64,000 bases of DNA, from the NCBI GenBank assembly GCA_035653615.1, contig DASRBN010000007.1:1-64000 (forward strand), written 5' to 3'. The notes beneath the pieces were generated by a model, which searched no databases, was not told the DNA's origin, and was given only the letters and a program-made list of their open reading frames with translations. The DNA comes from Ktedonobacteraceae bacterium. Its GTDB lineage: Bacteria; Chloroflexota; Ktedonobacteria; Ktedonobacterales; Ktedonobacteraceae. The position numbers were made by a program, and so were the translations under genes. Numbering within the stretch: the first letter of the stretch is position 1; each line of letters begins with the position of its first letter. This document shows, piece after piece, positions 33,468-38,490 of this stretch.

Positions 33468-35483
33468 TTATAAACCTCCCAGGTTAGGCGTACTCAACAA
33501 ATGGCTCAAAAACCTGCTCGCGACCCGCTGGTCTACACGACTACCGATGCGGGCCAGAAGGATATTCGCCGGCTCCATACGCACATTCGGTTCGGTCGTC
33601 GGATATTCTGTAAAGCCTTGAGAAGCGAAAAGCCGCGCGATCAATTCGCGATACTGGTAGATATTGAGGCCGAGCCCTTCCATATCCCAATGCCATGATA
33701 GACCCATTGCGTACAAAATGATGTCTTCCAATGCATCGAGTTCAAGCGCAAAGGCCAGCAAATTTTTCGCAATACCCAGCCGGCGCCAGTTTGCGCTGAC
33801 TTCAATCCCCACCTCATAGACGTTCTCCAGGCCTTCCCACCACTCATCACCGGGAGCTAATGTCACCTCACCTACGATCTCACCGGAGGGCGTATGAGCT
33901 ATGGTGAGCGCGCAATCTGGCCGTCTCGCAATACTCAAGAGGAGCTGGTGCTCTCGTTCCGGCAGACGCGCGAAAGCCCGTAATCCTGCATCGATAGTAA
34001 GACGCTCGATCAGCGAGGGTGGGCAAAAATCGCGCAGCAATAGCGTTCCCTTTCCCGTTTCTAATGACCTGCTACGTGAGGGAGTCGCGCTTCCCTGCAA
34101 ATGCAAAAGGTCGAATAGACCGGCCAGGGGAGACCGATTATGAACCGTAGGGAAAGCCTGCCGCACCGGAGGAGGTAGCAACAGCTGGCGTACCAGTGCC
34201 GTCGTGTGCCGGTTCGTGTTGCTGATCGTCCAGCGGCGGGGCTGTGCCGGAAAATCCTGGGGACGATCCATAAAAGTAGTTGGAAAGCTGGCCGGGATCG
34301 ACGATTTTCCCATTACCTGTTGCGCAAGTGTCTCCTGCGCCTCCACGCCAAGCCATACCGGTTGCCAGCGCTCCACCCACTCTTCTGGTAAGGATACCGG
34401 GAGCTCCTGCCCGGACATTTCCGCCCAGACTATAGACCAGGCACGCGGCACGACCCGGTAGAGATCATATCCTCCACCACCCAATGCTACCCAGCGACCC
34501 TTACAATATGTATCGGCCAGCTGGTGTGCCAGTTTGACCTGCGCCTGAATCCCACGCATCGTCAGACTAAGATGTGTCAGGGGGTCCCAGGCATGCGTAT
34601 CACATCCATGCTGGCTGACAATAACGTCAGGAGCAAATGAGATGACCAGGGGAGTCAGAAGAGCCTCCATCGCCTCGATGTACGAATCATCCTCTGTGTA
34701 AGGCTGCAAGGGAACATTGACGGAATAGCCACGGCCTACTCCTTTACCCAGTTCAAGCACATCGCCTGTACCTGGAAAGAGATAGCGCCCGGTCTCGTGA
34801 AATGAGACGGTCATCACGCGCGGCTCATCGTAAAAGGCTCGTTGTACGCCATCGCCATGATGGGCGTCGAAGTCGATATATAACACTTTGGCTTCGCTGG
34901 CACGCAACACATGCGCTATTGCCACTGCGATATCATTGTAGACGCAGAATCCGGAGGCGCGTTCAGCCCACGCGTGATGCAATCCTCCCGCGGGATGAAA
35001 GATATGCAGCGGTCGTTCGTCTTCCGAAGCGAATGTTCCCCCTTCGGGCAGTCCCATTATTGCGCTCAAGGCAACCAGCGTCCCGCCTACGATACGTGCA
35101 GAAACCTCGTGCATTCCCGGCAGCGCAGGGGTATCTCCATCCGCAAAACCATATTTCAAGGCCAGTTCGGCTCTGCTTTCGTCCCGCTGCGCTTGTACGC
35201 GGTCTTCATCTCGACTGTGAAGTTCAGTTGCCGGGTCTCCCTCGTGAGCCTGGCTCAGGCGCTGCACGGCAGCAATATAATCGGGGGTATGAACCAGCTC
35301 CAGTTCCTCCAGCGTGGCAGGACGTGACGGCAAGCGATCCTGTTCGTAAGCGCTATGCCACAAACCACTGGTCTCCAGCAGATTCATCAATGCAACCAAT
35401 CGCGCCGGCTGCAAAGGATGGTCCGGGCCAAAATCATAATGCAGTTCGTCACTATCGAACAGCAAACGCGCCTTACAGTTCAT
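33468..35483 (-). CDS. AcuC-AcuA fusion: protein deacetylase plus GNAT acetyltransferase
   Basis: 671 residues. Residues 1-390 are an AcuC-type class I HDAC-fold deacetylase: HPAGGLHHAWAERASGFCVYND, YIDFDAHHGDG (zinc ligands Asp206, His208), QHGCDTHAWDPL (Asp295) and LGGGGYD. After a linker, residues 480-671 match Bacillus AcuA: a GNAT core with acetyl-CoA loop RRLGIA (567-572), then WHWDMEG and PANILLARIGSRVDQ, which are AcuA-specific. In Bacillus separate AcuA acetylates and inactivates acetyl-CoA synthetase and AcuC reverses it. Here both activities share a chain. The stop of the AcuB-like gene lies seven bases upstream, and AAGGAT overlaps it, so the locus is acuB-acuCA. No acs gene is in the window. 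Confidence 0.92.
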   Translation of the reverse strand: MNCKARLLFDSDELHYDFGPDHPLQPARLVALMNLLETSGLWHSAYEQDRLPSRPATLEELELVHTPDYIAAVQRLSQAHEGDPATELHSRDEDRVQAQRDESRAELALKYGFADGDTPALPGMHEVSARIVGGTLVALSAIMGLPEGGTFASEDERPLHIFHPAGGLHHAWAERASGFCVYNDIAVAIAHVLRASEAKVLYIDFDAHHGDGVQRAFYDEPRVMTVSFHETGRYLFPGTGDVLELGKGVGRGYSVNVPLQPYTEDDSYIEAMEALLTPLVISFAPDVIVSQHGCDTHAWDPLTHLSLTMRGIQAQVKLAHQLADTYCKGRWVALGGGGYDLYRVVPRAWSIVWAEMSGQELPVSLPEEWVERWQPVWLGVEAQETLAQQVMGKSSIPASFPTTFMDRPQDFPAQPRRWTISNTNRHTTALVRQLLLPPPVRQAFPTVHNRSPLAGLFDLLHLQGSATPSRSRSLETGKGTLLLRDFCPPSLIERLTIDAGLRAFARLPEREHQLLLSIARRPDCALTIAHTPSGEIVGEVTLAPGDEWWEGLENVYEVGIEVSANWRRLGIAKNLLAFALELDALEDIILYAMGLSWHWDMEGLGLNIYQYRELIARLFASQGFTEYPTTEPNVRMEPANILLARIGSRVDQRVASRFLSHLLSTPNLGGL

Positions 35484-35490
35484 TTGTAAT

Positions 35491-36237
35491 TCATCCTTGT
35501 TCGTCGTCCTCTACCGGCGAGCCTGCAAACGCATAGTGGATATTCGCCTCCCGCAATCGCACCAGCAAGGGTGAAGGATTTATCGTTCCGAGCCGCAAGG
35601 TCGCAACTTGCAGCACTCCGCTCTCCTGTGGAGCGGCTGTAATACTGCGCACCTGTATTCCTAACTGAGCAGCCAGTACGAGTGTTTCAGCCAGGGGACC
35701 CGGATCACCCGCCGGTAATTGAATCGTCAATTCCATTCCCGGCTCAAATGCGCCCATTAAACGCGCCAGTACTAGCAGCAAATCACTGCGTGTAAGCAAT
35801 CCAACCAGCACAGTGCGCATTCTACCTTCCTCGTCCTGTCCCATCTGCTCATATTCTACCACCGGCAAACAGTTCAAGCCTCGTTCGACCATCAATTGTG
35901 CTGCTGCCGCTACACTCGTCGACGGTGTTACACGGATGCTCGCCCGGTGCATGAACTCGGCCACCGGTCGTTCCTGCCACGGACGATGCAGCACTTCGCT
36001 GGAACTCCATCTACCCATAGCCGCCGCCAGGTCTATATCTTGTGAGGTCAACAACCCCTGGAACTCCGGCAATGCCTTCCGGCCTGTATCAATATATTTC
36101 GACCACGCAGAATTGCTTGCTGACACCACCGGTAGATGATGAAACTGATATTGTCGTAGCAGGTTAGCAGCATGACTCAGCGTATCATCAGGGGTGACTG
36201 TAATCAATTTTGTCGTCATCACTTCGCTTACAATCAT
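35491..36237 (-). CDS. acuB: AcuB-like CBS-pair protein
   Basis: 248 residues. Two CBS modules (about 1-60 with VMTTKLITVTPDDTL, and about 75-150 with HRASIRVTPSTSVAAAAQLMVERGLNCLPVV) are separated by an insert, and followed by an ACT-like C-terminal domain (about 165-245). This is the AcuB architecture. CBS pairs usually bind adenosyl nucleotides, so it may couple acetyl-CoA synthetase control to energy charge. AAAGGAAG before the ATG of MIVSEV fixes the start. The AcuC-AcuA fusion gene follows after seven bases. Confidence 0.85.
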   Translation of the reverse strand: MIVSEVMTTKLITVTPDDTLSHAANLLRQYQFHHLPVVSASNSAWSKYIDTGRKALPEFQGLLTSQDIDLAAAMGRWSSSEVLHRPWQERPVAEFMHRASIRVTPSTSVAAAAQLMVERGLNCLPVVEYEQMGQDEEGRMRTVLVGLLTRSDLLLVLARLMGAFEPGMELTIQLPAGDPGPLAETLVLAAQLGIQVRSITAAPQESGVLQVATLRLGTINPSPLLVRLREANIHYAFAGSPVEDDEQG

Positions 36238-36393: not shown

Positions 36394-38490
36394 ATGATCG
36401 ACAACGATGATCTTTCTACTATCCCTCAGTCCAACGATCAGCGAGATGACACGGTCCATTCCACCATCCAGGTGCCGGTAGTTGAGCCAGCGCCACAACC
36501 TGCTCCTCGTCCATTCCCCAGCGTAGATGACCTGCTAGCACTGCGCATTGCCTCGGACCCGCAAATCTCACCCGATGGTTCCCTCATCGCCTTCACAATA
36601 CAGCAATGCGACGCTCAGACGAATACCACCAGTAGCACCATCTGGTTAGTACGCGCTAAAGCCGCTAAAGGAGACATTCCCTGGCAGATCACTAATGGCG
36701 TTGAAGAAGAGCGTCAAGGCAGGCATGATCTATCGCCGCGCTGGTCTCCTGATGGAAACACCCTCGCGTTTTTGAGCGACCGCAGCGGCACCCTGCAAAT
36801 TTACTTGCTGCCCATGCAGGGTGGGGAAGCCAGGCAATTGACTAATTTGAAACACGGTATTACTGAATATAGCTGGCGACCGGACGGCAAGGCTCTCGTC
36901 GCCCACAGCCCCTGGAGACCTGCGGATGACCGCGATCTGCCTGATACCAGCAACATATCCGTCGTTTTCACCCGTCTGGATGAGCAATGGGATGGCGAAG
37001 GCTATAAGCAAGGACGTCACCAGCAGCTCTGGTTTATTCCTTTAGAGGGTGAACCTGTACGCCTGACAGCAGAACCTGTGGACCTCGTACAATCCTGCTG
37101 GTCGCCCGATGGCAAGGAAATAGCATTCTGCGCCAACCGCCGCCCCGATCCCGATCTTAGCGTAAGCATGGCGCTGTGGGTACTGAACCTGGCAAATCGC
37201 CAGATGCGACGGCTGACACCCGAAGATGGCCTGGCGCAGGCACCCGCCTGGTCGCCCGATGGACAGCATATTGCCTATTACTATGCAGCCGATCAAACAG
37301 AGGCGAGCAATGTGATTCCTTTTGTCGTAGATGTCCAGGGCAGTAGCGCTCCACGCCCCGTCACCTCGCAGTCTCCAAACTTCACCTCTAGCGAGTGGAT
37401 CATCGACGAGCTGCACAGTTATGCGCATACTCGCCCGCAATGGTATCCTGATAGCAAAGCACTACTTGCCACCTTTCAAGAGCGCGGCCAGCTCCATCTG
37501 TACCACCTTGACATGGAACACGATACGATGACTCGTCTGACCGGTGGCAACGGCTGCTACCTCAATCCTCAACTTAGCAAGGATGGACAGATAATCGCAG
37601 TAGTTCGCACGGACTGGTTTACACCCGGCGATATCTGGAGCATGGACGGGAACGGACAAAACTCACACAAATTAACTGGTGTAAACGACACGTACCTGCG
37701 GAGCCTCCAGCTTGTGCGCCCCAAACGTATCACCTGGCAAAGCTTCGATGGCCTGGAGATTGAGGGTTGGCTCTACCTGCCACCATTGCCGGAGGGCACA
37801 AAAGCTCCCTTGATTCTGGAAGTTCATGGCGGCCCAAACCTGGCCTGGGGTGACAGCTATGTTCACGAGTTCCAGGTGCTGGCCGGCAAGGGATTTGCGG
37901 TGCTGGCCGCCAATCCTCGCGGCAGTTCCGGGTACGGAGAAGCATTCTGCCGCAAAAATCTGAACGACTGGGGAGGAGATGATTTCCGGGATTTGATGGC
38001 GGGTATTGACCACGTCATAGCCACCGAGATGGTAGAAGCCAACCGGCTTGGCATTGGTGGCATCAGCTATGGCGGCTACATGACCAACTGGGCAATCACG
38101 CAGACAAACCGCTTTAAGGCCGCTGTGAGTCGCAATGGCATCAGCTACCTTCCCAGCGCCGGTCTGCTCTCGGATCAGACGCTCTGGTTCGATCTCGCAA
38201 TGAGCGGCGAGGGGCAGGATGTAGAGGCATTGAGGCGCAGTTCCTCGCCTCTAACTTTCGCGGATAAGATTACGACTCCGCTCTTGCTCCTGCACGCGGC
38301 AGATGATTTGCGCTGCCCATTCTCTGAATCCTTGCAAATGTTTGTAGAACTGCGCAAGCGCAAACAAAAAGTCGAACTGGTTCGCTATCCGGGTGCCAGC
38401 CACTTGATGGACTGGCCCGATGTCGGTTCGCCATTACAGCGTACCGACCGCCTGGCTCGCACAGTCGAATGGTTCGAGCGTTATGTTTAA
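36394..38490 (+). CDS. S9 family peptidase (acylaminoacyl-peptidase-like)
   Basis: 698 residues. The N-terminal half is a beta propeller with repeated S-P-D-G motifs (ISPDGSLIAFT, WSPDGNTLAFLS, WSPDGKEIAFCA, WSPDGQHIAYYY). The C-terminal alpha/beta hydrolase has the nucleophile Ser in GISYGGYM, Asp in LLHAADDLRCP and His in GASHLMDWP, with LEVHGGPN forming the oxyanion-hole region. It cleaves short peptides or acyl-amino acids. No signal peptide, so cytosolic. It diverges from acuB across 156 bases holding a TATACT -10 element. A loose GGGGTGA/TCACCCC inverted repeat after the stop (about 38514-38550) may terminate it. Confidence 0.92.
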   Translation: MIDNDDLSTIPQSNDQRDDTVHSTIQVPVVEPAPQPAPRPFPSVDDLLALRIASDPQISPDGSLIAFTIQQCDAQTNTTSSTIWLVRAKAAKGDIPWQITNGVEEERQGRHDLSPRWSPDGNTLAFLSDRSGTLQIYLLPMQGGEARQLTNLKHGITEYSWRPDGKALVAHSPWRPADDRDLPDTSNISVVFTRLDEQWDGEGYKQGRHQQLWFIPLEGEPVRLTAEPVDLVQSCWSPDGKEIAFCANRRPDPDLSVSMALWVLNLANRQMRRLTPEDGLAQAPAWSPDGQHIAYYYAADQTEASNVIPFVVDVQGSSAPRPVTSQSPNFTSSEWIIDELHSYAHTRPQWYPDSKALLATFQERGQLHLYHLDMEHDTMTRLTGGNGCYLNPQLSKDGQIIAVVRTDWFTPGDIWSMDGNGQNSHKLTGVNDTYLRSLQLVRPKRITWQSFDGLEIEGWLYLPPLPEGTKAPLILEVHGGPNLAWGDSYVHEFQVLAGKGFAVLAANPRGSSGYGEAFCRKNLNDWGGDDFRDLMAGIDHVIATEMVEANRLGIGGISYGGYMTNWAITQTNRFKAAVSRNGISYLPSAGLLSDQTLWFDLAMSGEGQDVEALRRSSSPLTFADKITTPLLLLHAADDLRCPFSESLQMFVELRKRKQKVELVRYPGASHLMDWPDVGSPLQRTDRLARTVEWFERYV

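Follow-up and report, generated by a model that had tools for sequence, protein, structure and literature searches.

An acuC::acuA gene fusion beside acuB in Ktedonobacteraceae encodes a predicted single-chain acetyltransferase and deacetylase for acetyl-CoA synthetase

We analysed a 64,000-nucleotide stretch of DNA from a Ktedonobacteraceae bacterium (assembly GCA_035653615.1, contig DASRBN010000007.1, positions 1 to 64,000; the window). In this stretch acuA, acuB and acuC are encoded together on one strand, with acuB placed 7 nt before a gene in which acuC and acuA are joined. In Bacillus, separate AcuA and AcuC proteins acetylate and deacetylate acetyl-CoA synthetase (Acs), and AcuB is encoded alongside them. 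The features of the locus are as follows.

33468..35483, minus strand: acuC::acuA fusion gene, 671 aa (single frame; Pfam and PDB matches; conserved in 23/29 family genomes)
34179..35483, minus strand: AcuC (class I HDAC) part, residues 1-435 (Pfam, PDB, tree; alignment reaches the C-terminal end of free AcuC)
34074..34178, minus strand: linker, residues 436-470 (mostly low predicted confidence; conserved among Ktedonobacterales)
34101..34163, minus strand: conserved linker block RxAFPxxRxRSPLxxLFDLLH, residues 441-461 (9 of 21 columns invariant in 20 orthologues)
33471..34073, minus strand: AcuA (GNAT) part, residues 471-671 (PDB matches, active-site alignment, tree)
35491..36237, minus strand: acuB, 248 codons (248 aa), two CBS units plus ACT (solved-AcuB match, model, Foldseek), 7 nt upstream of the fusion
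36394..38490, plus strand: divergent S9 (prolyl oligopeptidase-type) peptidase (Pfam Peptidase_S9)

Positions 33468-35483 read as a single uninterrupted frame of 671 codons. The class I HDAC domain Hist_deacetyl of Pfam covers residues 22-355 of the product (E = 2e-82), and the best Foldseek matches of its predicted model are class I HDACs. The generic Pfam GNAT match to the C-terminal part is weak (residues 510-581). Despite this, the last 204 aa align with solved AcuA chains along almost all of their length: 2q04 (E = 2e-26) and 9g7f (E = 5e-25), the latter being the AcuA of an entry that postdates the AcsA–AcuA work. A reading of this domain as a generic GNAT was therefore rejected. Identity to B. 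subtilis AcuA is 33% over 186 columns. Because the AcuC alignment runs to the very end of free Bacillota AcuC and AcuA homology begins about 35 residues later, the fusion can be described as two full-length proteins, AcuC (1-435) and AcuA (471-671), joined end to end through a 35-aa linker. An AlphaFold2 model built with 13 orthologues has two folded units, with pLDDT below 50 for most of residues 436-468. A preliminary description of this DNA had proposed a 671-aa frame with an HDAC-fold deacetylase followed, after a linker, by a GNAT domain of AcuA type; the frame reading, Pfam and the PDB matches bear out each of these elements.

The preliminary description also called for a survey of Chloroflexota, and this found the fusion both in the window's own family and in others. 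Of 29 family genomes, 23 have it intact; in the rest it is cut by a contig end (one genome), broken in frame at homopolymers (G321 and G340), reduced to a remnant (G272) or without any AcuA match (two genomes). Its hosts among close relatives include three Thermogemmatispora species, Tengunoibacter, Dictyobacter and Ktedonospora, and divergent fusions are present in G084, G145 and G193, which belong to three further families of Chloroflexota, and in the Chloroflexota MAG KLAP209. On this distribution, the fusion is old and conserved. The joining of two separate genes by an assembly or frameshift artefact has next to no probability: errors do occur, as the breaks in G321 and G340 attest, but the same single frame recurs across the family, in several other families and in cultured strains, and for the Chloroflexota fusion this reading was rejected on that recurrence.

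Two observations on individual records belong here. The frames of G321 and G340 (L086 and L087) are broken at homopolymer-type positions, which is most simply put down to sequencing error, as a split in the adjoining peptidase of L087 also suggests. The fusion is also present in a record named 'Proteobacteria bacterium Centralia_MAG_106' (L091), which appears to be the same as the G193 contig and is probably a misnamed Chloroflexota MAG.

Phylogenetic trees place both halves of the fusion with Bacillota AcuA and AcuC. The HDAC half pairs with Bacillota AcuC to the exclusion of the two other HDACs of the window genome (support 100/100), on which basis its assignment to the common bacterial HDAC-like amidohydrolases was rejected. 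The GNAT domain groups with AcuA. Neither of the two refuting outcomes named in the preliminary description, a placement outside AcuA and two halves in separate frames, was observed. The fused AcuA domains of Chloroflexota form one clade (100/98), and the family's free AcuA genes branch within it; from this position, these free genes, including a copy in the window genome, most simply derive from the fused gene. That copy is 64% identical to the fused AcuA half and keeps its active-site residues. In L016 8222-9405 (G000:C41) it directly follows a hotdog thioesterase gene of the same orientation; no such gene was found beside the other free AcuA genes.

We aligned the catalytic residues of both halves with those of characterized homologues. 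In the AcuC half, the active site consists of H169, H170, D206, H208, D295 and Y339, and in fused and free AcuC alike the His pair, the zinc ligands and the Tyr of the HDAC site do not vary. In the AcuA half, the general base E102 of B. subtilis AcuA corresponds to E561, R108 to R567, E97 to E557 and W138-H139-W140-D141 to W597-H598-W599-D600; E102, R108 and WHWD are kept in every fused protein aligned. In B. subtilis AcuA, E102Q abolishes activity and W140A nearly abolishes it (PMC11255334). The position of E135 is occupied by Gly in the window protein and nearly all sequences from Chloroflexota, which gives no argument for inactivity because E135A and E135Q raise the acetylation activity of the B. 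subtilis enzyme (PMC11255334). For pairs with unsaturated dS, the HDAC part has a dN/dS of 0.04-0.10 and the AcuA part one of 0.02-0.10, ratios by which both halves are under strong purifying selection. Both catalytic sets are thus complete, and both halves look active, activity being predicted from residue conservation.

The free AcuA of the window genome, with its identical active site, means that the AcuA half of the fusion may be redundant or redirected. The fusion might then be a deacetylase tethered to its substrate, with the AcuA half serving as a docking or steric-inhibition module and acetylation left to free AcuA or to chemistry. AcuA does bind and sterically inhibit AcsA without acetylating it (PMC11910552). 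We nevertheless judge this unlikely, given that the general base, the acetyl-CoA-contacting residues and WHWD are invariant in all fused proteins, that the AcuA half has the low dN/dS given above, and that most fusion genomes in the family survey lack a free AcuA.

The product of the gene upstream of the fusion matches the solved AcuB 9s4v (E = 4e-16) over its second CBS unit and ACT domain. Its predicted model contains two CBS units followed by a beta-alpha-beta-beta-alpha-beta ACT domain, and the 18 best Foldseek matches of this model are all solved AcuB chains. No Pfam match was obtained for the ACT domain, and its presence is predicted from homology and from the model. The AcuB-type neighbour described earlier at a distance of seven bases is thus confirmed in its position and its layout. 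The association with acuB is nearly invariant: of 25 testable loci, 24 have acuB as the gene directly before the fusion, and G328 (L058) is the sole complete fusion locus in which no upstream acuB was detectable. A near-full-length homologue of the divergent S9 peptidase is also found close to acuB-acuC::acuA in at least nine related loci; we regard it as a conserved neighbour and not as part of the Acu system.

A second fusion was found outside Chloroflexota. In a survey of 398 genomes from the phylum of a Clostridia locus, AcuA matches were present in 64, and only one of these, G449, has AcuA in a long fused frame:

L215 2859-7410 (G449:C34:204858-209409): second fusion operon, acuB-acuC::acuA-acsA

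The operon runs on one strand, with a fusion of 600 aa and an acsA whose product carries the motif RSGKIMRR. Both the AcuA and the AcuC halves of G449 group with Bacillota sequences, and a single common origin of the fused AcuA domains was rejected with a constrained tree (AU p = 0.0027). The G449 junction retains a ribosome-site-like stretch, AAGGAGGTG, a leftover of the kind expected if acuA had begun as a separate gene. Judged from these trees, the second fusion is independent and of Bacillota-side origin, as seen in one genome and one assembly. A different arrangement occurs in Actinomycetota, in which AcuA-like genes (L105, L107, L110 and L111) have a CBS-domain gene beside them on the opposite strand and often have long N-terminal extensions with unverified start codons; this is possibly a further variant of the Acu system.

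The fusion might be a joining of neighbouring genes with little consequence, both enzymes being active and co-translated for dosage only in an otherwise Bacillus-like system. The Bacillota-side loci L114 and L216-L218 have acuB, acuC and acuA as separate genes in this same order, and the linker is predicted to be mostly unstructured. Against this, the fusion has been kept through deep Chloroflexota divergence and has arisen twice, and the Ktedonobacterales linker is almost as conserved as the domains that it joins: mean pairwise identity within Ktedonobacteraceae is 0.64 for residues 436-470 and 0.70 and 0.72 for the domains. Twelve linker positions (R441, A443, F444, P452, L456, D458, L459, L460, H461, P468, S469 and R470) are invariant in 20 proteins, and the block RxAFPxxRxRSPLxxLFDLLH is highly conserved although predicted to be mostly unstructured. 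We consider a fusion of little consequence possible but doubtful, and it is compatible with the reading preferred below in all but a possible benefit of coupling. We also considered that free AcuA might be made from the fused mRNA at a conserved internal start, and rejected this, as no start codon in the linker is conserved in the orthologue alignment.

The link to Acs was examined in the genomes that carry the fusion. No acs gene was found near the fusion in the window or in any other Chloroflexota locus examined. All 16 fusion genomes tested contain Acs, and all 16 Acs sequences inspected have the target lysine. The only Acs of the window genome above the curated cut-off, which is of a second Acs type and scores 749 bits, carries RSGKIMR, the seven-residue target motif of B. 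subtilis AcsA. The motif is kept in the Acs of most relatives as well, and the Acs of G193 and G145 have RSAKIMR, in which the lysine is retained. Most related fusion genomes have a canonical Acs of higher score; none was detected in the window assembly, which is about 95% complete. Elsewhere in the window genome, L180 6415-8432 (G000:C40, ~98.4-100.4 kb) encodes the C-terminal part of an acyl-CoA synthetase beside serine-recombinase-like frames, a gene probably interrupted by a mobile element. Its identification as a lost AcsA was rejected because it ends in PKTISGKIRR, unlike the RSGKIMR of Acs.

These findings bear on whether Acs is the primary target. Other acyl-CoA synthetases or other proteins might be preferred: acs is unlinked in Chloroflexota, the window genome has many ANL synthetases, AcuC has further substrates such as TufA (PMC13039410), and the free AcuA paralogues suggest target specialization. 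Such a broader role is also improbable, because acsA adjoins the independent fusion, acuA and acsA are divergent neighbours in most Bacillota loci, and RSGKIMR is conserved as described. It is the order acuB–acuC::acuA–acsA of the independent operon that ties the fusion to acetyl-CoA synthetase. The earlier designation of the locus as one of acetyl-CoA synthetase control thus gains from that operon and from the RSGKIMR motif of the window Acs, but in Chloroflexota, in which acs is unlinked, we infer this role.

Regulation by AcuB was considered in the light of recent work on Bacillus and Geobacillus, in which AcuC is inhibited by AcuB (PMC13039410, PMC13121692). The inhibition is promoted by AMP (PMC13121692) and by Ap4A (PMC13039410). 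In Geobacillus, AcuB acts on AcuC through its ACT domain, at an interface formed by D89, E92 and M188 of AcuB and by R197, Y198 and the C-terminal tail of AcuC (K378; A368-Y379 by HDX) (PMC13039410). By motif position, R197-Y198 correspond to R233-Y234 of the fusion and are kept. The AcuB contact residues D89, E92 and M188 are T, A and I in the window. In every aligned AcuB from Ktedonobacteraceae, His replaces the Ap4A residue R33, with H34 kept in the window, and Ktedonobacterales AcuB also differs from Bacillus AcuB by G104N and an insertion inside the first CBS unit. R33 and E92 are retained in the AcuB of other fusion-bearing lineages. Because residues of the Ap4A site and of the AcuC contact are changed and the linker motif is invariant, AcuB regulation in Ktedonobacterales may differ from that in Bacillus. 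The proposed role of AcuB as a nucleotide-sensing partner therefore holds for Bacillus and Geobacillus (PMC13039410, PMC13121692) and is less secure for Ktedonobacterales, in which R33 and D89/E92 are changed.

The motif RxAFP...RSPLxxLFDLLH and the loss from AcuB of the Bacillus contacts and the Ap4A Arg occur in the same lineage. The AcuC tail in contact with AcuB passes straight into the linker, and a rebuilt AcuB dock at the linker is therefore possible, as a hypothesis drawn from one correlated lineage event. A stronger version, which we hold only tentatively, is that selection has favoured the physical coupling of writer and eraser on two or more occasions, and that the Ktedonobacterales protein has become an integrated machine. 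By docking on the linker or next to it, AcuB would then switch the one chain from an acetylating to a deacetylating state and back, and Acs would be under an AceK-like control that is robust to concentration.

The reading that we prefer, with a probability of about 70%, is that the fusion is an AcuB-regulated bifunctional Acs acetyltransferase/deacetylase that resembles AceK in its logic. The C-terminal AcuA domain would bind Acs and acetylate the catalytic Lys of RSGKIMR with acetyl-CoA, switching Acs off, and the N-terminal AcuC domain would deacetylate Acs and switch it on. AcuB would bind the AcuC part and block deacetylation according to adenine nucleotides. The net direction would then be set by acetyl-CoA for the writer and by AcuB for the eraser. 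The fusion would fix the writer:eraser ratio at 1:1, a presumed benefit, and both sites may hold Acs. Futile cycling would not have to be wholly avoided, and robustness of the AceK type, through a ternary complex, would be possible with a fusion; for AceK, a ternary complex of the bifunctional isocitrate dehydrogenase (IDH) enzyme with its substrate has been proposed to render the output robust against changes in protein levels (PMC2645677). Counting against the preferred reading are the unlinked acs of Chloroflexota, the free AcuA paralogue of the window genome, the canonical Acs that was not found, the changes at D89, E92 and M188 of AcuB, and the single genome that carries the second fusion.

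The locus resembles the AcuABC systems of B. subtilis and Geobacillus in the sequences of its three components, their catalytic residues, their gene clustering and the Acs target motif. It differs in having AcuC and AcuA in one chain, in the order acuB-acuC::acuA and in the conserved linker, as well as in the acs gene, which is not adjacent in Chloroflexota, and in the nucleotide-site and contact residues of AcuB. AceK is alike in its working, as it combines opposed modification and demodification of one enzyme of acetate metabolism in one polypeptide, but it is an unrelated protein that acts by phosphorylation and is not a fusion of two separate enzymes; the acuC::acuA product does not belong to the AceK family. 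In Salmonella and E. coli, Pat (PatZ) and CobB reversibly acetylate the active-site lysine of Acs. These differ in that Pat has an NDP-forming acyl-CoA-synthetase-like domain, CobB is a sirtuin, and the two are encoded by separate genes. No published account of an acuC::acuA fusion was found in the open-access papers searched. Each part of the protein is a member of a known family; it is the single-chain lysine-acetylation writer–eraser, its conservation and its repeated origin that we did not find described.

The fusion is carried by soil-dwelling Ktedonobacterales, an order of the phylum Chloroflexota, and cultured hosts are available in Thermogemmatispora (among them the thermophile T. tikiterensis), Dictyobacter, Tengunoibacter and Ktedonospora. 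How the opposed acetylation and deacetylation of Acs avoid running together is posed as an open question in the introduction of the 2026 work on AcuB (PMC13121692). A conserved, twice-evolved single-chain writer–eraser makes this question directly testable with one protein, one partner (AcuB) and one substrate, and the fusion would offer an acetylation counterpart to AceK.
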